Source of the DNA: Gemmatimonadota bacterium
Lineage (GTDB): Bacteria > Gemmatimonadota > Gemmatimonadetes > Longimicrobiales > Gaopeijiaceae
Direction of reading: 5' to 3'
Length of the DNA stretch: 64,000 nt
Assembly (NCBI GenBank): GCA_022823225.1
Contig: JAJDXM010000081.1
Coordinates: forward strand, 1 to 64,000
Shown here: positions 1,371-25,568 of the stretch, piece by piece
How the letters are laid out: every line of letters starts with the position of its first letter
Numbering within the stretch: position 1 is the first letter of the stretch
Notes under the pieces: generated by a model
Databases searched by the model: none
The model's input: the letters and a program-made list of their open reading frames with translations, nothing else
What the model was told of the DNA's origin: nothing
Program-made: the position numbers and the translations under genes

Positions 1371-1991
1371 TTAGCCGATCGGGATGACGAAGCCGCTCTG
1401 AATGGTCAGGTGCCGCGTCTTGGAGTCGTCCTCGTCTATCGAGGCGAGGCCGAGCGAGTAGAGGGCGTCGAGCCCCAGCCGGACGCTGCCGGCGACAGGA
1501 AACTCGACGCCTCCGCCGAATGCCACCCCGAAGTCCAAGGTTTTGATTTCGAAATCCGCGAAAGGCGGATCGACGCAAGGCGTTACGACGCTCAACCCCT
1601 CCAGAGTGCCCTCCACTTCGCACGAGAGTCGATAGGCCGCCCATGGGCCGGCCATCACGCCGACGGAAACCCCGCCGTTGCCGGACGTGCCGACCCTCGC
1701 CAAGGCCGAGAGTTGGACGTAGTCGAAGCCGAGCGTGATCTTGCCACCCTCGACGTTGCCGCTGCCGCCCTTCTGCGCGTACGTTCCGCCGAACCTCAGG
1801 CTCAACGCGTTGGACACCGGAACACCGAGTTCCATCCCCGCGACGAAGCTGGAAACGGATTCCTCCTCGACTCCCTCCTGCTCGATGGTGACGGTGCCGA
1901 AGCCGACTCCGCCCTTCAAACCCAGGGTGGTCTGAGCGGTCGCAGGGGCCGCGATCAGCGCAAGACCGGCCAACACAACAAGCTTTCGCAT
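1371..1991 (-). CDS. Outer-membrane beta-barrel (porin-like) protein
   Basis: A 206-residue protein beginning MRKLVVLAGLALIAAPATAQ, a clear Sec signal peptide with cleavage after TAQ. The mature part has alternating polar/hydrophobic strands rich in Gly (LGLKGGVGFG, LRFGGTYAQKGG, SVRLGLDALYSLGL) and ends GFVIPIG, as in small 8-stranded outer_membrane/OmpW-like barrels. Start 1991 was chosen because it begins the signal peptide; a longer frame upstream has no signal character. A Cys pair near residues 130-145 (SCEVEG, VTPCVD) may form a loop disulfide. It lies directly downstream of the TonB receptor on the same strand and may be co-transcribed with it. Ligand unknown. Confidence 0.75.
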   Translation of the reverse strand: MRKLVVLAGLALIAAPATAQTTLGLKGGVGFGTVTIEQEGVEEESVSSFVAGMELGVPVSNALSLRFGGTYAQKGGSGNVEGGKITLGFDYVQLSALARVGTSGNGGVSVGVMAGPWAAYRLSCEVEGTLEGLSVVTPCVDPPFADFEIKTLDFGVAFGGGVEFPVAGSVRLGLDALYSLGLASIDEDDSKTRHLTIQSGFVIPIG

Positions 1992-2169
1992 AGCAGGCAT
2001 TCTCACTTTGGTTGGGTCAAGGTGACCAAGGGACCGTAGCGTGGCCCCGCTGGATCGCACACCAATCCAAACACTTGACCGACGGCCTGCCGAGCGTCCA
2101 TCCGTCCCCCGGCAATGGATCGTAGGCGATGCCGACGGCAACCCGGTAGAGGATGACGGCCTCCTCCTT

Positions 2170-5100
2170 TCAGTTCCCGGGGCGGTAGGTCACCGAGAGC
2201 TTGAGGCGTCTGCCCTTGGGGCTGTGGGTAAACGCGTCGTAGGACTGTTCCCAGTTGACGAGTGGCGGATCGGCGTCGAGAAGGTTGATCACCGACAGCG
2301 CGACATCGGTCGTGCTCGACGTACGCCGCAGCAGACTGAGATCCCAGCCCACGAACCGGTCGATGTGCTCGAACTCGGTGCCGGGGAACACTTCGTTCGT
2401 GTACCCGGAGACGGTGTTGAGGTAGTTGACCACGCTGTAGTCGCCCCAGTGGTATCCGGCCGAGAAGCGGAGTTTCCACTGCGGCAGCGGGGGCGCGATC
2501 GGATTGCCCCAGTTGAGCTGGCCCGCCGCGTCCTGCGCGGCGAATACCTCGGCCCCGTTGAGTTCGAGCGCCTTGACGAAGAACTCCCGGGTGTAGGTGC
2601 CGTCGGCCCCCAGAGAGAAGATGCCCGCACCGACCGGCAGGCGCGTGCTCGCGTGCAGGTCGATTCCCGACATGCGGATGCCCGGCCAGTTCACGTTCGT
2701 CACCCTGATCCGTTCCACGGCCGACACGTGGCAGGTTCCCGTTCCCGGCCCGTCGGGGCAGGTCACGAACTCCTGCACGGCGGCCCGCGAGGCCCCGCCC
2801 GCCGCGTACAGCCGGGTCACCCCTCCGAAGGGCACTTGGTCGATCACGTCGCGGAAGTCGTAGCTCCAGTAGTCGGCCGTGGCCCGAAACCGCGGAAGCT
2901 GCACGGTCAGTCCGACGTTGTAGGTCAGCGCGCGCTCGGGAACGAGTTGGCTGTTGCCGAACGCGTCCACCGCCTTGTAGATGCCCGCCTCGGACACGTA
3001 TTCGAGCCCGGTGCTGCGGTCTTCGTTCAGGTCGTCCACCGATGGCGTGCGGAAGGTCGTCTGGAGCGAGGCGCGCAGCGCCAGCGGGTCGGCCAACGAC
3101 ACGCGGACGGCCAGCTTGGGATCGAAGCTGCTCACCGAGCCATGGAACTCGTAGTTGGCGGCGGCCTGCCCCTCCACCCTGTCGCCGAGTGTGAAGCGGC
3201 TCTCGGCGAAGAACCTGTTCACCATCTGGGCGTCCTGGTACTCGTAGTGCCCGGTGGTGAAGGTGAACGCCCCGGCCTTCTCGAGGCAGCTGCGGTCGCC
3301 CGGCACGGGACACGGGTTGATCGACAGGTCGCCCGGCTGGTTGGGGGTCGCGGACACACCGAACCTGCGGAACTGATACCCGACGGCGTAGTCGAGCCCC
3401 TCCGTGACGGCCCCCTTGAGCATCGCGTCGGCGACGAACAGATCCGCCGAACTGTCCAGATTCACCTCCTCGTTGATCCAGTCGATCAGTTCGGCGCTGT
3501 TCTCCAGTCCGGGCATGTAGTCCGGGTTCGGCTGGTCCCGGTAGAGCGCGCCCGGCTGCGCCGATAGCCGGTGCGCGTTGCTGAACGGGTTGTAGTACCG
3601 GCAGTTGCCCTGGCCCGCCACCGCCCCGTTGAGCGGACCGAGCGCCATCCCGGACGGACTCGACGGGTCGACCACGACCGTCACTCCGCAGTCCGGGCCT
3701 CCGAAGCCGCGGAAGGCCAGGAACTTCCGGTAGGCGTACTCGGCCGGAAGGTTCGCGTTGCCGGAGGCCCGGGAATAGCTGGCGGACAACTCGATGGCCG
3801 CCCCGCCCAGCGACTCGATGCCGCGCTCCAGCGAGGCGGCGATCCGCTGGGTGCGGGACGCGCGCTCCAGCGTCCGTCCGGGTCCCGAGTTGCCGACGAG
3901 CCGCCCGTAGAAGTACCAGTTGTCCTCCAGACACGCCTGTTGGCTCGCGAAACCGGCGCTCTGTCCGTGGGTCCCGCAGAACGCCTGTCTGCCCGGATTT
4001 CCGGGTTCGATCACCTGGGCTCCGTTGTACGGAGAGATCGGCGGATAGGACGGGGTCGTGAACCACTCGGGAGTCGTGGCCTCTGACCAGAGCGCCTCGA
4101 CGTGGTAGCTCGAACGGTCCCCTAGGTCGCCGTTGATCTCGGCGAAGCCCCGGAATTGGCGGGACGCCTGGAGCAGATTGTCCCACTGCTGGTAGCGGAA
4201 GCGGCAGGTCTCGCCCTCGCGGTGCCCCCCAAAGTCCGTGCAGCGGGGATCCACGAAGACGCCGCCCCAGCCTCCGAACTGCGCGTCCGAAAGGGCCGCC
4301 GTGAACTCTTCGATCGTCTCGTCGCCCGTCAACCTCGGGAAGAGGAACGCGCCGGGATTCCCCGTATACGACCAAGCCCCGCCGCCGGACGTGAAGGGAC
4401 GAAGCGCCCAATCGCGATCCTCGGGGTGCAACTCCTGGCCGACCAGTGCCTCGGCGGATACGACGGCGTGCGCGCCGTCACCGAGCCGCATGCCCCAAAT
4501 CGCTCCCGCGTGCGTCTCCCCGGCCCCGGCGAAGTACTCGTGCGAGCCCGACACCTCCAACCCCTCGAAATCGCTGCGGGTCAGAAAGTTGGCCACGCCC
4601 GCCACGGCGTCCGAGCCGTAGACCGCCGACGCGCCCTCCTTCACCACCTCGATCCGGTCCAGCGCGACCGACGGAAAGGCGTTCACGTCCACGAACCTCC
4701 CTCCGGAGAGCCGCGCCGGCAGGTACACTTGCCGGCGGCCGTTGAGCAGCACGAGGGTGCGGGACGGCCCGATGCCCCTGAGGTTGACGCTGGCGACCGT
4801 CTCCGACACCGCTGCGGGCGGGCGGGTATTGTACCAACCCTGGCGGTCTCCAAGAACCCCGGCGCTTGATCCGAGGTTGCGGAAGAAGTCCACGGCTTGA
4901 GGAGACCCCTGCTCCGCCAGCGTCCTCCGGCTCGAAACGGCCACCGCATACGGCAACTGCACGAGTGACTCCGAGAACGCGGTGCCCGTCACCACCAGTT
5001 CCGCGAGGCCCAGGACGGTTGTTGTCAGCCTGAGTTCGACGGCGGCAGCGCCGTCCACCGTGACGGTTACGCTCACCGAAGCGGCCGCATAGCCCAGCCT

Positions 5101-17745: not shown

Positions 17746-19361
17746 TCACCGTCGCTTGTCCGGGGTGCCGTACGGGTACATCCCGCTCAGATCCACGTTC
17801 TCGTAAGGGAGCGCGTCGAGGAACGTCGTCCCCACGAAGGGACCGGGTGCCTCCACGACCAGGATGGTGCGCGCGTAGCCGGTCTCGTCGAAGCCGCGGC
17901 GGAAGTGGACCCGGGACTTGACCACGAAGACGTCGTAGTCGGCGGGATCAATCGGCCCGAAGCGGAAAGCGTCCGGGTAGAGGACCTGCTCGTAGGCCGG
18001 GGTGAGGAATACGACGTTGCCGTTGCCGAAGGAAACGGCGGCGATGCGGTCGTAGCCGAAGCCCTCGCCGAAATACCGCAGCGTACCGGTGACGCGGTGG
18101 GGCGAGCCGCCGGAGGGGGTGAAGCCGCCGATCTCGTGGTCGAAGGGGTCGCCGGGTTGGGCGCCGCTGGCGGTGAGGGCCTCCAGGGTGACGGGGGAGG
18201 TGATCGTGCCGTAGAGGACGTTGCCGATGCCGGCCGCTTCGAAGGCGCTGAGGATGTGTGTGGCGTCGCCGGGGCGGTCGCTGTAGTCGCCGACCGCGAC
18301 GGGGGTCTCGCCGCGCGAGATGGCCGCCGCGACGATTCGGGCGGCTTCGGTGGGGCGGGGGTAGCTGCCGAGCGCGAAGTCCTCGCGCACGCGCCACATG
18401 AAGTCGTCCATGTCGTCGGCGATCTCGTCCGCGAGCGCCTGGTCGCCGTTGGTCATGACCTGGATGGTGGCGCCCACGTCGGGTACGTCGGACCAGGGAT
18501 AGCCGAAGAAGACGCTCACGTACGCGTCGTGCTCGCGCGCCTCCCAGCGCCGGGCGTGCTCCATGATGTCCATCGCGGGGGACTGGCCGGTCCACTGAAG
18601 CACGGTGGCGGTGATGATCCCGGGTTTGCGGGTCGCCGTCGTGGGCTCGTATTCGCCCCGCGCGGCGAGGCGCAGGGCGCGGGCCGCGCGCTCGCCCTGG
18701 ATGTACGAGTCGTAGTGGGGGAAGCGCTTGGTCACGAGCGAGAAGTTCGCGTGCGCGAGGAACTCGGCGTCCTCGTTGCCGTGGAGGTCGAAGGTGGCGG
18801 CGATGGGTACCTCCGGACCGACGACTTCGCGGAAGCGCCGGGCGATCTCGGCTTCGGGGCGGGGAACGTCCCGCACGGCCATGGCCCCGTGCAGCGCGAG
18901 GAAGACCCCGTCGACCGGCATCTGCTCTTCCAGCTCGGCCAGCATGGCGTCCAGGAAGTGCTCGAACGTCTCCCTGGTGTTCCAACTCCGCGACGACCCC
19001 CCGAAGACCCCGACCGGCGAGGTCAGCGGCACTAGTTCAACGTCGCCGAACTCGCGGGACCGCTCTACGAAGCCGCCGATGTAGCCGCCGGAGTTCAGCA
19101 GCGCTGCTCCGGAACGCGGCTCGCTGTAACGAAGCCAGTCCTCGACCTCGGTGTCCCCGCCGGGGCAGAAGGTGCAGGTCTCGTGCTGGTAGCTCGCGAC
19201 GGCGAAGCGGATTCGGTGGGGTCGTCGGCGGGGGGAGAGCCGCAGGCGAGGAGCGTTGTGGCGAGGGCTGTGGTGGAGGCGATCTCAAGAGGCCGCCCCA
19301 AGCATCGCCCCGTCCGCAGCGTTGGCCGTTGGTACAAGCGGGCAAAACCGGGGTTATTCAT
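17746..19361 (-). pseudogene. M81-family metallopeptidase lipoprotein, frameshifted
   Basis: The M81 (MlrC-like) domain is encoded in one frame from about 19220 down to 17746: it opens RIRFAVASYQHETCTFCP, then GAALLNSGGYIGGF, VDGVFLALHGAM, the metal motif FDLHGNED and VGDYSDRPGDATH, ending PYGTPDKRR. No start codon exists in this frame upstream of the domain. A lipoprotein signal (start ATG 19361, TTLLACGSPP) is in another frame; the two join if the G run 19230-19235 (C6 in the message) had one more base. The complete protein would have about 538 residues. Options are a real inactivating or phase-variable slip, or an assembly error. Other M81 members hydrolyse small cyclic or linear peptides. 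It is last in the minus-strand block after the glycosidase-like gene. Confidence 0.75.
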
Positions 19362-19412
19362 ACACTTGCTCAGTCCTTTGCCATTTCAGGTCGCTCGTTC
19401 TTGGGTGCCCTG

Positions 19413-20552
19413 CTACAACACCTCCCGCAGTGCCGCAAGGTGCTCATCGGTCAGGCCGTGCATTTCGAAGGTCGACACGCCGGCGGCTCCGGCGTCCCGG
19501 GCGGTCGACACCGCCTCCGCCAGCTGCCCGGGATCAAGCGCCGGCAGGTAAAGCCCTGCGTTCAGCGGCGTGCCGGCGCGCGGACCGCCCTCGACATCGC
19601 CGTCGGCGAGCGCGGCGACCCCTTCGCGCACTCCGTCCCCGATCCAGGGGATGTCGTCCAGGTAGAAGCTGTGGTAGAGCATCGGGAAGAAGCGGTCCAG
19701 CGGCCACTCGTCCCACGCCTGGCGGACGAGGGTGCGCGCGATCGTCGGGGTGGGGAAGACCGCCGCGGTGATGGGCTTGCCGTGGGCGTGTACCCCGGCG
19801 GCCAGATCCCGGACGGCCCCGGTCACGGAGTCCCAGCGAAAGCGCCGCCACGCCTCGTCGGACGGGGGGTCGGGGATCTCCAGCGGATCCCTGCCGTCGA
19901 GGGCGGCGAACTGCTCGCGGCACACGTCGCAGTAGCAGAAGTCGAACTCGGGGTGCTCCACATCCTGCACGAGGTTGTAGGTCTCCCAGAGCGCGCGCGG
20001 CAGGATGACGTCGCAGTGGCGCACGTAGTCGAGGTGCACGCCGTCGATGGCGGGGTTCGCGGCCAGCTCGCCCACGCGGCCGCGGAGGTACTCCCGCACC
20101 GGCTCCCGCGACGGGCACACCCACCTGTAGTAGCCCACGTAGGGCGGGTGCTCGAGCGAAGACTCCAGGTTGCGGCTGACCGTGAACCACTCCGGGTGGT
20201 TCTCCGTCACCCAGGCGTCTCCGTTGCGGTTCATCGTCCAGAACCAGCGGTGGAACTCCAGACCTTCGGCGTGGGCCGCGGCCGAGACCAGTTCGGTGTC
20301 CCCCCCGCCCACCAGCACGGCATGGAATCCGGCTTCGCGCAGCCGTGCGAAGCGCCGCCGCCATTCCTCCGAGTCGTAGTCGCGGTTGCCGTGGACCCAG
20401 GTCCAGACGCTGAAGTCGGGAAGGCTGGTGGCTGGGGGTCGCCCGGGGTCCTGGCCTTGCTCGGGCAAGCACCCGGACAGCGCGGCGGTGCCGGCTGCGC
20501 CGCCCAGAAGGACCGAGCTGCCGGCCGCCTTGACAAAGTCCCTGCGTTTCAT
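19413..20552 (-). CDS. Tat-exported glycoside hydrolase-like protein (GHL10 type)
   Basis: A 379-residue protein starting at ATG 20552 with MKRRDFVKAAGSS, a Tat signal, and a Cys-containing cleavage region (SGCLPEQ). The rest reads as a TIM-barrel: FSVWTWVHGNRDYDSEEW, LREAGFHAVLVGG, AIDGVHLDYVRHCD and CYCDVCREQFAAL, patterns of GHL10/family-10-like glycosyl hydrolases, followed by TFEMHGLTDEHL near the end. Catalytic acids may be Asp of HLDYVR and Glu of TFEMHG. It overlaps the CBM9 gene by four bases (ATGA), so the two are translated together. Substrate unknown. Confidence 0.75.
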   Translation of the reverse strand: MKRRDFVKAAGSSVLLGGAAGTAALSGCLPEQGQDPGRPPATSLPDFSVWTWVHGNRDYDSEEWRRRFARLREAGFHAVLVGGGDTELVSAAAHAEGLEFHRWFWTMNRNGDAWVTENHPEWFTVSRNLESSLEHPPYVGYYRWVCPSREPVREYLRGRVGELAANPAIDGVHLDYVRHCDVILPRALWETYNLVQDVEHPEFDFCYCDVCREQFAALDGRDPLEIPDPPSDEAWRRFRWDSVTGAVRDLAAGVHAHGKPITAAVFPTPTIARTLVRQAWDEWPLDRFFPMLYHSFYLDDIPWIGDGVREGVAALADGDVEGGPRAGTPLNAGLYLPALDPGQLAEAVSTARDAGAAGVSTFEMHGLTDEHLAALREVL

Positions 20553-21526
20553 GGACCCGCTCCCTCGATGAATCGCACGATCCCCCACATCTCCGGGATG
20601 TGCATGTTGATCTCTCCCTGCGGCGACCACACCCAGTTGTGCTCGGGGTGCCGATTCTCACGCGACGGGAGTTCCGCTCTCCGGTATCCGCCGTCGACCA
20701 TCTCGACCGGCCACTGCACCCGCGAGAAGTTGATCCGCCATTTATCGCCGGCCCGCGGCCCGGCGCCAGGCATGTGCCGGCCACCCGCGCCGGTCGCGTA
20801 GCGGTCGGTCTCCCTGGGATCGTCCGCGGCCGCGCCCCCCTCGGGTGGCCGGAACGCCGACCACGGAATCGCGATCTCGGCGGTCCATCCCCGGTCCTCG
20901 TCCGACGGGTCGTTCAGCGTACCGTCAAGCGCCACCGCCGTACGGAGGCCCACCATGTCCCACCCCACGTTGGCTCTGCCCCTGCGATTGTAGGGCCGCG
21001 GCAGAAAAAGGTCGAACTCGGTGCCCAGGGCGTTGACTTCGAGCTCGTAGTAGTCGAGCGCGTCCCCGTCGGGATCGATGAAGACCTCGAAATCGTGCTC
21101 GTGGTAGAGGATGTCGTCGCGGTCGGCGAGGGTGGCCCACAGGTGGGGTTCCTCGAGTTGCGCGGCGACATAGAGGTGGTCGTCGTCCCACACGATCTTC
21201 GCGCGCGTGTCCCACTCCGGAGCGGGCCAGTCGTCGCCGCGGATGTCGATGAACGACTCGGTCCAGGGGGCGGCCTGCCACGCCGCGTCGTCCAGGACGC
21301 CATCGATTGCCGGGGGCGACGCGGCCCTGGGGGCGTCGTAGGACCTCGGCGCTGCAAATCGCTCCGGGAGTGCGCGAACCGTCCCTTGGGTCGCCAGGGA
21401 CACGGCGGGTCCGACAGACTCGGGTCCCGCCCACGAGCCAGCCGCCCACGAGGCAACCGCCCACAGGCCGGCTGCGGCGATCAGGCGCCGGGGCGCTCTC
21501 CGGAGACTAGAGACACGGTCGTACAT
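20549..21526 (-). CDS. CBM9-like carbohydrate-binding protein
   Basis: A 325-residue exported protein. After an N-terminal hydrophobic signal (about 14-33) comes a CBM9-like domain at about 60-300: PPAIDGVLDDAAWQAAPWTESF, AKIVWDDDHLYVAAQLEEPHLWA, HDFEVFIDPDGDALDYYELEVNALGT and WTAEIAIPWSAF, the standard motif order of this family. CBM9 modules bind reducing sugar ends. The stop overlaps the start of the glycosidase-like gene (ATGA 20549-20552). It begins 23 bases after the Cache-barrel gene, and the block is probably one operon. Confidence 0.85.
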   Translation of the reverse strand: MYDRVSSLRRAPRRLIAAAGLWAVASWAAGSWAGPESVGPAVSLATQGTVRALPERFAAPRSYDAPRAASPPAIDGVLDDAAWQAAPWTESFIDIRGDDWPAPEWDTRAKIVWDDDHLYVAAQLEEPHLWATLADRDDILYHEHDFEVFIDPDGDALDYYELEVNALGTEFDLFLPRPYNRRGRANVGWDMVGLRTAVALDGTLNDPSDEDRGWTAEIAIPWSAFRPPEGGAAADDPRETDRYATGAGGRHMPGAGPRAGDKWRINFSRVQWPVEMVDGGYRRAELPSRENRHPEHNWVWSPQGEINMHIPEMWGIVRFIEGAGP

Positions 21527-21549: not shown

Positions 21550-24120
21550 CTACCAGCGCATGGACAGACTCACCGCCCCCCGGTGGGCGGCTCCGGATCC
21601 GGGTGCTCCGGCAATCCGTCCGGCCTCGATGCTTGCCGCCAAGTCCGGACCCAGGCGGAGGCGTCCTCCGAACTGGTACCCGTAGATCCCCTGGTTCGAG
21701 ACATCGAGCGGAGCGAAAGCGACGGAGCTGACCATACCGGCCGACGGGAAATACGCCGCGTCGAGGTGCTCGGTCAGCACGACCCTCGCGTAGGGCGTCA
21801 CGAGACCCCGGTCGTCCCAGGCCCTGACGCCATACCCGATTTCAGCGTCGAGCCGTCGGCTGCCGTAGTCGCGGCCACCCGCTGTCAGCCCCGCCGCGCC
21901 CTGGGCCCAGAGTCGCGTGACGTCGCTCGCCGTGGATCCCCACGACGGTCTCACGCCGAGCGAGAGCCCCTGTCCGCCGCCGCCCGGGTTTACGCCGATG
22001 GAGCCGCCAAGCCCCCACTCCTCGTACTCCTCCTCCTGGTGCATCACGAGTCTGCGGCCGTGCAAGCGAATGGTCAGGGTCCCGTTATGCGACAGATAGC
22101 TCATCCCGCCACCGACCTCCATGCCGAACCCGCTGTCGACTTCCCCGCCGTCCTGTCTCATGCCGATGCGCAACTGCGGCTGAAGCGTCCCGGCTCCCAT
22201 GCCGAATCCCTTGAGCGCCTCCACCATCAGCCTTACACGGCTGGCATCCGTGCTCAGCTCCCTGCGCCCCTCGACTTCGGCGGAGTGCATCCGCGCGATG
22301 AATCCGTCCGCGCGTACCGCAATCTCGAGGTCGGTCGGCGCTTCGGAATGGATGAGTTCCCCCCTGATCCCCAGTCCGGCCATCTGCATCGTGATGTCGC
22401 TGTCGGGATCGACCTCGCCTCCACCCTCGACGCCCAGCAGGCCCGAACCGTACCCGAATACGCCCCAGGTCAGGAGACGGTCGGTGATCAGGAGTCGGGC
22501 ATAGGGGAACCCGCTGGTAAGCGTGGTGGAAACATCTCCGAAGTCGTCATCGCCGGGGCGACCGAGTTCGAATCGTCCCGATCCGCTGCTATGGGTCACC
22601 GCCAGTCCGGCCACCAGCGGCCCGAAGCCGTAGTCGCCCCCGATCGCCGCAGTCGTGACCTCGCCCTCTCCGAACCCCTCGCCATCGCCGCTGTTGAACC
22701 TCATGACCTCGCCGCCGCCCCACAGGGAATAGCCCCCTGCGCCGTTGGCGGCCCCCGGCGTAACCTGGAAGGAGCTGCCGCCGAGCAGTGCGCTGGTCGA
22801 GAGCGGGATGAAGGACGCCAGTCCTGCCCGGCCGATGTTGCCGGAGGCTCCGGCCGAACCTGCGATTGCCGGACCGAACCCGAAGGGAGCCGATCCCGGG
22901 GTTCCGTATGGGTCGTCCCACCCACGCAGGAAGCCGAAATCGACCCCTCGTCCGCCGACCGTGACATGGTCCTCCATTCGATGCGGGTGCGACACCCGGT
23001 TGCCGATCATCTCCATTGCCTGGCTTGCCACCGAGCGGCCGAAGCGGTGGAGCCAGTCTTCGGCGGCCGTCTCCGCTTCCGCGGTCGAGAAGTTCCGGTA
23101 GAACCCCGCGCCGATGATGAACTCCTGCCCCGCGTAGACATCGAGATTGTTGGTGAAGGAGAGAGCGTAGCTCACCTTCGGCGATCCCGTGTCCTCGTCT
23201 CCCTCCACCGTCGGGTCGTCCCAGAAGTACTCGACGTACCCCCCTCCGGCCCGGGCCGCGGCAATGATGAGTTCGACGAACTTCGTCCCGTTGATGTCTT
23301 CGGTGTCCTCGGCGAAGCGGCCTTCGCGCCAGGCGTTGGCGCCGTGGAAGATCACGTAGCCGTCGGCGGTGAACATGAAGAGATAGATGGGACCGGACCT
23401 GAAGTGGCCGCCTTCCTCGCGGAGTACGGCCTTCCACTCGTTTGCGCGCTCGAAGCCGACGAGCGCGATCAGTTCCTGAAGCCACTCGAACGAGCCGTGC
23501 ACGAACTGTCTGAGGGTCTCGCGGTCGACCACGTCGGCGGCGGACACCTCCGGCAGCGGAATGTTGGGAAGCGGCGTTCCGGCGGAGCTCAGATCCTGGT
23601 AGTACCCCCCCACGACGACAAAGTCCGTTCTCGCCACCTGGGAGTAGTACTGGATGGCGTAGGCGTCCTTGCACCGGGTGTCGGTCAGATCATTGGGATC
23701 GTCCCAGCACCACTCCACGAAGTCGCCTCCCTCCCTGGCTCCGGCGCCAAGAAGTTGCTGAATGATCCTGGTTCCGTTGTCGTCGATCACGTCGGCGGCG
23801 TTCTTCCCGTCGATGTTGGGATCTTCGCCGTGGATGAACACATGTCCCGTGGGGGCGAACAGGATCAGGTACATGTTCCCCACATTCCAGTCGCTCCCCT
23901 CGACCCTGAACTCCTCGAGGACCTTCGAGCCCGTGGCGATGTCCGTGATGCTTGCGAACTCGGAAGTCGCCCAGGTCACGAATCCCTTCAGAGTCTCCCG
24001 GTCAACCACTTCGCCGGCTGTGACCTTCGGCACCTGGGCGTGGGCCGGCCGGGACAACGGCGCGGTGGTGACGAGGAAGAGCAGGGTGGCGGCGATGGTG
24101 GCGGGCCTGACGAATCGCAT
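21550..24120 (-). CDS. Double Cache-domain outer-membrane autotransporter-like barrel
   Basis: An 856-residue protein with signal peptide (cleavage after AHAQ near 29). Residues about 30-180 and 190-355 are two related Cache (sCache_2-like) domains: each begins VVDRETL, has a LILFAPTGHVFIHG/LFMFTADGYVIFHG strand pair, a GxxFVEWCWDDP/GGGYVEYFWDDP turn and a closing VVVGGYYQDL/IIGAGFYRNF. After a Gly-rich linker, residues about 450-856 form an autotransporter-type beta-barrel ending RGAVSLSMRW with terminal aromatic residue. Cache domains normally sense small ligands on chemoreceptors or kinases in the inner membrane; here they would be displayed at the outer membrane. First gene of the minus-strand block. 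Confidence 0.8.
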   Translation of the reverse strand: MRFVRPATIAATLLFLVTTAPLSRPAHAQVPKVTAGEVVDRETLKGFVTWATSEFASITDIATGSKVLEEFRVEGSDWNVGNMYLILFAPTGHVFIHGEDPNIDGKNAADVIDDNGTRIIQQLLGAGAREGGDFVEWCWDDPNDLTDTRCKDAYAIQYYSQVARTDFVVVGGYYQDLSSAGTPLPNIPLPEVSAADVVDRETLRQFVHGSFEWLQELIALVGFERANEWKAVLREEGGHFRSGPIYLFMFTADGYVIFHGANAWREGRFAEDTEDINGTKFVELIIAAARAGGGYVEYFWDDPTVEGDEDTGSPKVSYALSFTNNLDVYAGQEFIIGAGFYRNFSTAEAETAAEDWLHRFGRSVASQAMEMIGNRVSHPHRMEDHVTVGGRGVDFGFLRGWDDPYGTPGSAPFGFGPAIAGSAGASGNIGRAGLASFIPLSTSALLGGSSFQVTPGAANGAGGYSLWGGGEVMRFNSGDGEGFGEGEVTTAAIGGDYGFGPLVAGLAVTHSSGSGRFELGRPGDDDFGDVSTTLTSGFPYARLLITDRLLTWGVFGYGSGLLGVEGGGEVDPDSDITMQMAGLGIRGELIHSEAPTDLEIAVRADGFIARMHSAEVEGRRELSTDASRVRLMVEALKGFGMGAGTLQPQLRIGMRQDGGEVDSGFGMEVGGGMSYLSHNGTLTIRLHGRRLVMHQEEEYEEWGLGGSIGVNPGGGGQGLSLGVRPSWGSTASDVTRLWAQGAAGLTAGGRDYGSRRLDAEIGYGVRAWDDRGLVTPYARVVLTEHLDAAYFPSAGMVSSVAFAPLDVSNQGIYGYQFGGRLRLGPDLAASIEAGRIAGAPGSGAAHRGAVSLSMRW

Positions 24121-24200: not shown

Positions 24201-24305
24201 CCCACTTGACGAAACGCGGTCTCGGGCACCACCTTGCCGCTTGGGGCGAATCCTGTCGTCCCCGGAACACGCCCGCCCATACCCCACCCACCACGGAGAG
24301 ACCTC

Positions 24306-25568
24306 ATGGAATACGCCCCCGACCGGCCCTGGTACATGCGCCTTCACTGGCAGGTGCTGATCGCGATGATTCTCGGCATAGGCGTCGGCCTCCTGCCGAT
24401 CGGGGAAAGAGTCGAGTTCTACGTCGGATGGGTCGGCGACCTGTTCATGCGCCTCCTGAAGATGATCATCCTGCCGCTGGTCATCACCTCGATCGTCTCG
24501 GGGGTGGCGTCGGCCGGAAGCGGGCGCACCGTGGGCCGGATGTTCGGCAAGACGCTGGGGTACTACATGGCGTCGAGCCTTCTGGCCGCGCTGACCGGCC
24601 TGCTCCTGTTCAACCTGATCAACCCGGGCCGGGGGTATCCGGTCACCGACACCGGAGCGCCGGCGCCCGAGCTTGCGACACCCAGCTCGATCGACGACCT
24701 GATCAATACGATCGTTCCCGACAACTTCTTCGATGCGGCGTCGGCCGGTGAAATGCTGATGGTCATCTTCTTCTGCATCGTCTTCGGAGCGGCCGTCACA
24801 ACCCTGCCGGAGAATCCCCGCGCGAAAATCACGGATCTGGTCGACGCGCTCTTCAAGGCGATGATGGCCCTGACGACGGGCATCATCAAGCTGCTCCCGA
24901 TCGGGGTCTTCGGGCTGATACTCACCACGGTCACCACCACGGGTCTGGAGTCCTTCCCCAACCTCGCCAAGTATGTCGCGGGGCTGGGCTCGGGCCTCGC
25001 CATCCACTTCCTGATCACGCTGCCGCTCCTGCTGTACTTCTGGGCGCGCGTGTCTCCATGGAAGCACCTGATGAACATGCGCGAGCCTCTGCTGGTCGCG
25101 TTCTCGACCAGTTCCTCGGCGGCCACCCTGCCAGTCACCATGAAGACGGTGAGGGAAAGGGTCGGGGTATCGCGTCGCGTGTCGTCGTTCACGCTGCCCA
25201 TGGGCGCCACGGTGAACATGGACGGGACTGCGGTGATGGAGTGCGTGGGCGCGCTCTTCATCGCGCAGGCGCTGGGAGCCGACATCGGGGTCGGGACGCA
25301 GATCATCGTCGTGCTTACGGCCCTGCTGGCGTCGATCGGCGCCGCGGCGGTGCCATCCGCGGGGCTGGTGGTGATCTTCATCATCCTCGGCGCCATCGGC
25401 ATCGGCGACAATCCCCAGGCGATGCTGATCGTGGCCGCGATGCTCTCCATCGACCGGCCGCTCGACATGGCGCGCACCGCCGTCAACGTCTACAGCGACT
25501 CCTGCGCAGCGGCGGTGGTCGGGAAATGGGAAGGCGAAGAGGGAATCGACGAGGAGATTCGGATGTAG
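24306..25568 (+). CDS. Dicarboxylate/amino acid:cation symporter (DAACS)
   Basis: A 420-residue inner-membrane secondary transporter of the GltP/DctA type. The hairpin motif SSSAATLPVTMK near residue 270, TLPMGATVNMDGTA near 297, PSAGLVVIF near 348 and the C-terminal DRPLDMARTAVNVYSDSC are the diagnostic substrate- and cation-binding segments. Eight transmembrane helices are visible. It would import glutamate, aspartate, alanine or C4-dicarboxylates with Na+ or H+. ATG 24306 follows ACGGAGAG; an upstream in-frame extension has no such site. It is transcribed away from the Cache-barrel operon. Confidence 0.93.
   Translation: MEYAPDRPWYMRLHWQVLIAMILGIGVGLLPIGERVEFYVGWVGDLFMRLLKMIILPLVITSIVSGVASAGSGRTVGRMFGKTLGYYMASSLLAALTGLLLFNLINPGRGYPVTDTGAPAPELATPSSIDDLINTIVPDNFFDAASAGEMLMVIFFCIVFGAAVTTLPENPRAKITDLVDALFKAMMALTTGIIKLLPIGVFGLILTTVTTTGLESFPNLAKYVAGLGSGLAIHFLITLPLLLYFWARVSPWKHLMNMREPLLVAFSTSSSAATLPVTMKTVRERVGVSRRVSSFTLPMGATVNMDGTAVMECVGALFIAQALGADIGVGTQIIVVLTALLASIGAAAVPSAGLVVIFIILGAIGIGDNPQAMLIVAAMLSIDRPLDMARTAVNVYSDSCAAAVVGKWEGEEGIDEEIRM

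Follow-up and report, generated by a model that had tools for sequence, protein, structure and literature searches.

The window, a stretch of 64,000 nucleotides from a Gemmatimonadota contig, carries on its minus strand an open reading frame (ORF; 21550-24120) for an 856-residue protein that combines Cache domains with a predicted outer-membrane barrel. The order of the fusion is signal peptide, two copies of sCache_2, pore helix, spacer, barrel and extra strands. The segments and the gene upstream of them are as follows.

24037-24120, minus strand: signal peptide, residues 1-28 (MRFVRP...RPAHA/Q), judged by eye
23587-24033, minus strand: Cache copy 1 (sCache_2), residues 30-178; Pfam and fold match
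23086-23550, minus strand: Cache copy 2 (sCache_2), residues 191-345; Pfam and fold match
22993-23085, minus strand: pore helix, residues 346-376; a helix in both models, aligning with the start of the NalP and Hbp translocators
22735-22992, minus strand: spacer, residues 377-462; poorly conserved, of low model confidence, ending after a conserved LLGGSSFQ
21985-22734, minus strand: predicted 12-strand barrel like that of type Va autotransporters, residues 463-712; structure matches
21553-21984, minus strand: C-terminal region, residues 713-856; six additional predicted strands (amphipathic) and the end SLSMRW
24234-25568, plus strand: gene of the sodium:dicarboxylate symporter family (PF00375; Pfam, 8e-118)

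The signal peptide, read by eye from the sequence, has a basic start, a hydrophobic core and an AHA/Q site, and AHAQ is kept among the orthologues. Across 27 distinct sequences conservation peaks in the pore helix, at 90% identity, and spacer residues 379-440 reach 49%. The symporter gene is transcribed divergently, and this adjacency is kept in close relatives only; more distant orthologues of the fusion lie in other gene contexts. A dedicated partner gene was rejected because neighbours are conserved in close relatives only, so the symporter is considered a neighbour and not a proven partner, one that would fit the use of organic acids. The Cache-barrel gene works as a single unit. On the same strand after it (17746-21526) lie genes for a CBM9-like protein, a glycosyl hydrolase-like 10 protein and an M81/MlrC peptidase; several close relatives keep the first and second of these.

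Tandem Cache domains and their ligand pockets

The preliminary description had placed two Cache copies in the N-terminal region, and both profile and fold searches bear this out. Pfam sCache_2 matched two stretches of the protein (E 6.5e-25, 88.3 bits against a cut-off of 25), and dCache_2 matched at 5.4e-19. When the DNA of the genome was searched with the profile, each copy alone exceeded the curated cut-off (50.7 and 44.4 bits), and sCache_2 was found nowhere else in the genome. The predicted structures matched the Cache fold of 2qhk, 4exo, 4k08, 5g4y and 3ub6 at Z 12.9-14.2; copy 1 matched 2qhk at Z 14.2, 4k08 at Z 13.8 and the PscD domain 5g4y at Z 13.0, and copy 2 matched 4exo at Z 14.1. 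NCBIfam returned MctS and CtpM, through the Cache parts only, and neither Pfam nor NCBIfam detected an output domain (MCP signalling or kinase) in the protein, Cache families alone being matched. The MCPsignal domain was likewise absent from nine genomes of the three genera that carry the gene, with control genomes positive. With MCPs missing from these nine genomes and sCache_2 confined to this protein in its own genome, the protein is not a chemoreceptor, and a role in chemotaxis was rejected.

In the PscD chemoreceptor domain, Tyr90, His103, Tyr143 and Lys156 hold propionate, with Trp92 and Trp145 sandwiching it, and the critical contacts for the carboxylate are considered to be Tyr90, His103 and Lys156 (PMC5062169). 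Mapping these positions by HMMER alignments gave Y84, I86, H97, W137, W139 and K151 in copy 1 and Y246, F248, H259, Y298, W300 and K315 in copy 2. The critical triad corresponds to Y84/H97/K151 and Y246/H259/K315. Tyr143 is a Trp in copy 1 (W137) and a Tyr in copy 2 (Y298), Trp145 is kept in both (W139, W300), and Trp92 is replaced by Ile (I86) and Phe (F248), respectively; the residues flanking the carboxylate clamp differ from those of PscD.

Eleven of the 12 pocket positions, including all of those in copy 2, are invariant in the 27 distinct sequences, and Y84 is kept in 26 of 27. The background rate of invariance over residues 30-349 is 42%, at which at least 11 of 12 would be expected by chance with a probability of about 5e-4, a significance that is inflated by the constraints of the fold; the pocket residues may be kept for the fold rather than for a ligand. 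Since the clamp residues are nearly invariant in both copies, both probably still bind a carboxylate-like ligand, and it is these conserved residues that point to carboxylates as the ligand class.

The pore helix, the barrel and the extra C-terminal strands

The C-terminal half of the protein matched nothing in Pfam or NCBIfam, including PF03797 and TIGR01414, and the profile match to autotransporter families that had been anticipated for the barrel was not obtained. Among the barrels of the family, four of 29 matched PF03797 (best 1e-4) and two of 29 matched TIGR01414. Structure prediction did recover the barrel. Two AlphaFold2 models were built, one of the full protein from an alignment of 28 relatives and one of the helix and barrel alone from 29 sequences; their confidence is moderate (pLDDT 69; pTM 0.45 and 0.62), and the spacer is mostly below pLDDT 50. 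In the full model, the two Cache domains are followed by a helix (346-376), then by a disordered spacer and, from residue 463 on, by numerous long strands, so the earlier limits for the Cache and barrel regions (30-355 and 450-856) were about right. In this model, only about four residues separate the last strand of Cache copy 2 from the pore helix.

The best eleven PDB matches from Foldseek were all type Va autotransporters. By VIA-align, the full model superimposed on NalP (Z 28.5, 2.1 Å over 260 residues) and Hbp (Z 28.4), helix included in both cases. The helix-barrel model gave similar values, again with the helix, for Hbp 3aeh (Z 29.1, rmsd 2.5 over 261) and NalP 1uyn (Z 28.9, rmsd 2.2 over 260), and EspP matched at Z 27-28 (27.9 with the helix-barrel model). 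The rmsd to the three translocators ranged from 2.1 to 3.3 Å. The genome also has four matches above cut-off for Omp85 (BAM). The domain content, order and predicted fold of the protein are well supported.

After the 12-strand barrel, which ends at about residue 712, six further membrane-like strands are predicted, whose amphipathicity lies in the range of strands 1-12, and most members of the barrel family have such extra strands. The aromatic end noted earlier (SLSMRW) also recurs: the last residue of the protein is W856, and that of most relatives is W or F. Residues 713-856 lie outside the main PDB matches, and neither Foldseek nor VIA gave them a match of their own, which carries no weight because they were modelled within longer segments. 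One divergent homologue (L078) stops soon after the position of strand eleven in the long form, at nearly classical length. Either the barrel has more than 12 strands and was closed too early by the models, or a second beta domain follows it.

In these genomes, numerous other proteins also terminate in this type of barrel. Related barrels carry Pfam-verified FN3 passengers (for example, L002) and occur in ORFs of up to 13,298 residues (G114) and more than 11,900 residues (G196), at loci including L112/L115. Because the barrel is common to FN3 proteins and very long ORFs, the Cache pair is one passenger among several, a pattern suggestive of a display platform used across the lineage.

Distribution of the fusion and interruption of the gene

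The full-length fusion is present in 11 of the 23 genomes of the window's genus, and tandem-Cache genes were found in 26 of 298 sampled Gemmatimonadota genomes, spread over three genera and two families. The same fusion, for which a search had been suggested, therefore exists in other genomes: 26 further distinct tandem-Cache sequences were collected, most of them full-length with the barrel, so the fusion is no artefact of assembly. A divergent homologue (L078; genome G198, 1843-4107, minus strand), with an ORF of 755 residues and 26% identity, exceeds the Pfam cut-offs for both Autotransporter (PF03797) and dCache_2 in one ORF and so confirms this type of fusion by sequence alone. In a scan of public genomes, the matches were mostly Gemmatimonadetes/Gemmatimonadota metagenome assemblies, of which one bears the name Candidatus Palauibacter denitrificans; Palauibacterales are frequent in marine sponges (PMC10469786). 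The bearers appear to be uncultured, mostly sponge-associated Gemmatimonadota.

Transfer between phyla was considered for three loci labelled as Gammaproteobacteria (L036, L038 and L040) and was dropped for two of them. L036 equals G300 in contig number, coordinates and score, and L040 equals G252 in coordinates; as these two genomes fall within the same family as the window's genome, the labels look wrong. An assembly labelled as Bacteroidota contains a copy that has diverged and is broken across two contig ends (L041, L127). Its G+C of 0.58-0.59, against 0.65-0.70 for the examined Gemmatimonadota loci, fits that assembly, so a copy of the fusion outside Gemmatimonadota is possible.

Single Cache domains also occur as separate proteins. 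Secreted stand-alone genes lie beside the fusion in two genomes (L030, 1448-2029, in G019; L031, 5213-5749, in G007), and their products have about 60% identity to Cache copy 1. Four related genomes encode proteins that have one Cache domain and a lipobox (LAAVGGC or similar; L079-L082) and are apparently anchored as lipoproteins.

In three genomes the gene is split at an identical site, GAGFYR/NFST, which is the junction between the Cache region and the pore helix (G033, L074/L075; G106, L076/L077; G116, L072/L073). In all three, GTTCTACCGG is common to both junctions, and the intact gene of the window has it too. A tyrosine recombinase gene precedes the barrel half in G106 and G116, with an arm-binding domain where the recombinase is complete, and the contig of G033 ends short of this position. 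A fourth genome (G332, L118) has a similar recombinase and barrel half together with relaxase-like and MobC-like ORFs, recognized by eye, and on this basis the insert resembles an integrative mobilizable element. Counting this case, the interrupted gene occurs in four genomes of two genera. As read from the sequences, the insertion would part the Cache half, still a secreted protein, from its barrel. The copy at L038 (11379-12637) breaks off close to its 3' end, behind YQLGG, and is followed immediately by a gene for a different, phage-type integrase; this is a putative second insertion site within the same gene.

Probable surface display, its alternatives and comparison with known systems

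We consider it probable, with room for doubt, that the protein is an autotransporter whose displayed tandem Cache domains would bind a small carboxylate on the outside of the cell, either to capture it or to make adhesion depend on it. The steps of export follow established type Va biology. The signal peptide would direct Sec export to the periplasm, the BAM machinery would insert the C-terminal barrel into the outer membrane, and the Cache pair would move through the barrel and be held outside by the helix staying in the pore. The anatomy of pore helix and barrel suggests that the passenger lies outside the cell. Both Cache copies would then bind a small organic acid of the C2-C4 carboxylate type, or a close analogue, and the output in the host niche would be ligand capture or ligand-dependent adhesion, not chemotaxis. 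The biological role, whether capture, ligand-controlled adhesion or signalling, is speculative. Small carboxylates cross outer-membrane porins freely, so capture at the surface would bring no obvious benefit, which speaks against display for that purpose.

It is less likely, but deserves weight, that in the same autotransporter the Cache domains serve as an adhesive or dimerisation module towards the host or neighbouring cells, with no small ligand, and form a head like the FN3 passengers. The FN3 repeats on paralogous barrels agree with this, as does the apparent lack of a signalling partner, and sponge symbionts are rich in FN3 and cadherin proteins (PMC8163846). However, adhesin heads usually change fast, whereas this passenger shows higher conservation than the barrel (73-78% versus 60-67% identity), and its pocket residues are nearly invariant.

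That the Cache domains stay in the periplasm, with the C-terminal domain as a mere outer-membrane anchor of a periplasmic binding protein, is doubtful. The secreted single-Cache genes adjoining the fusion in two genomes and the Cache lipoprotein family are in line with such an arrangement, and the element insertion frees Cache halves, so that Cache proteins without a barrel do exist here. Nevertheless, the helix that directly follows Cache copy 2 can be overlaid on the pore helices of NalP and Hbp, and the barrel is common to FN3 proteins of the adhesin type. A bolder idea, for which we see little probability, is that the Cache output helix has become the autotransporter pore helix and that an external metabolite alters an enlarged barrel of up to 18 strands, a change that would be read in the periplasm. 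Least probable is a trans-envelope receptor in which the ligand shifts the pore helix and a periplasmic or barrel-borne event signals inward: the short join at the place where chemoreceptors have their output helix, the high conservation of the pore helix and the long unexplained C-terminal region would suit it, but no periplasmic signalling domain was found, distant orthologues have no conserved partner gene, MCP is absent, and conservation of the pore helix is also expected for translocation.

In summary, we favour surface display of a ligand-binding Cache pair. If surface binding is true, small-metabolite binding would join the known uses of autotransporter passengers, sponge-associated Gemmatimonadota would have a route for sensing or taking hold of extracellular metabolites, and the protein would hint at a family of autotransporter barrels that exceed the textbook twelve strands. 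Cache domains count as the chief sensor modules by which receptors of the inner membrane sample the space outside the cytoplasm; in these genomes without chemoreceptors, sCache_2 domains occur only on the autotransporter, with the ligand pocket intact. The preliminary description knew of no protein with this arrangement, and this holds for the open literature of 5.39 million papers: no precedent for a Cache-autotransporter fusion was found there, and the single paper that mentions both "cache domain" and "autotransporter" concerns an unrelated Desulfovibrio adhesin system. The protein thus seems to be an autotransporter with a passenger type new to the literature searched.

Compared with type Va autotransporters (NalP, Hbp, EspP, EstA and BrkA), the predicted pore helix and 12-strand barrel superimpose at Z 24-29, and the signal peptide, N-terminal passenger and aromatic last residue are held in common. 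The differences are a tandem Cache passenger instead of a beta-helix, protease or esterase, a sequence below the PF03797 cut-off, and about 145 C-terminal residues with six strands that the classical proteins do not have. The FN3-passenger proteins such as L002 have a homologous barrel (25-35% identity in the alignment) and carry FN3 repeats where the window protein has Cache domains. With the sCache_2 chemoreceptor domains (PscD 5g4y/5g4z, Adeh_3718 4k08 and V. parahaemolyticus 4exo/2qhk) it shares the fold, the Tyr/His/Lys clamp and Trp145, but it has no transmembrane helices and no MCP or kinase domain, and its Cache copies are in tandem and joined to an outer-membrane barrel. The closest curated family for the Cache region is the MctS sensor kinase (NCBIfam NF052443, E 3.7e-17), whose score of 61.8 bits against a cut-off of 700 reflects the Cache part alone, the kinase having no counterpart in a protein that ends instead in a barrel.
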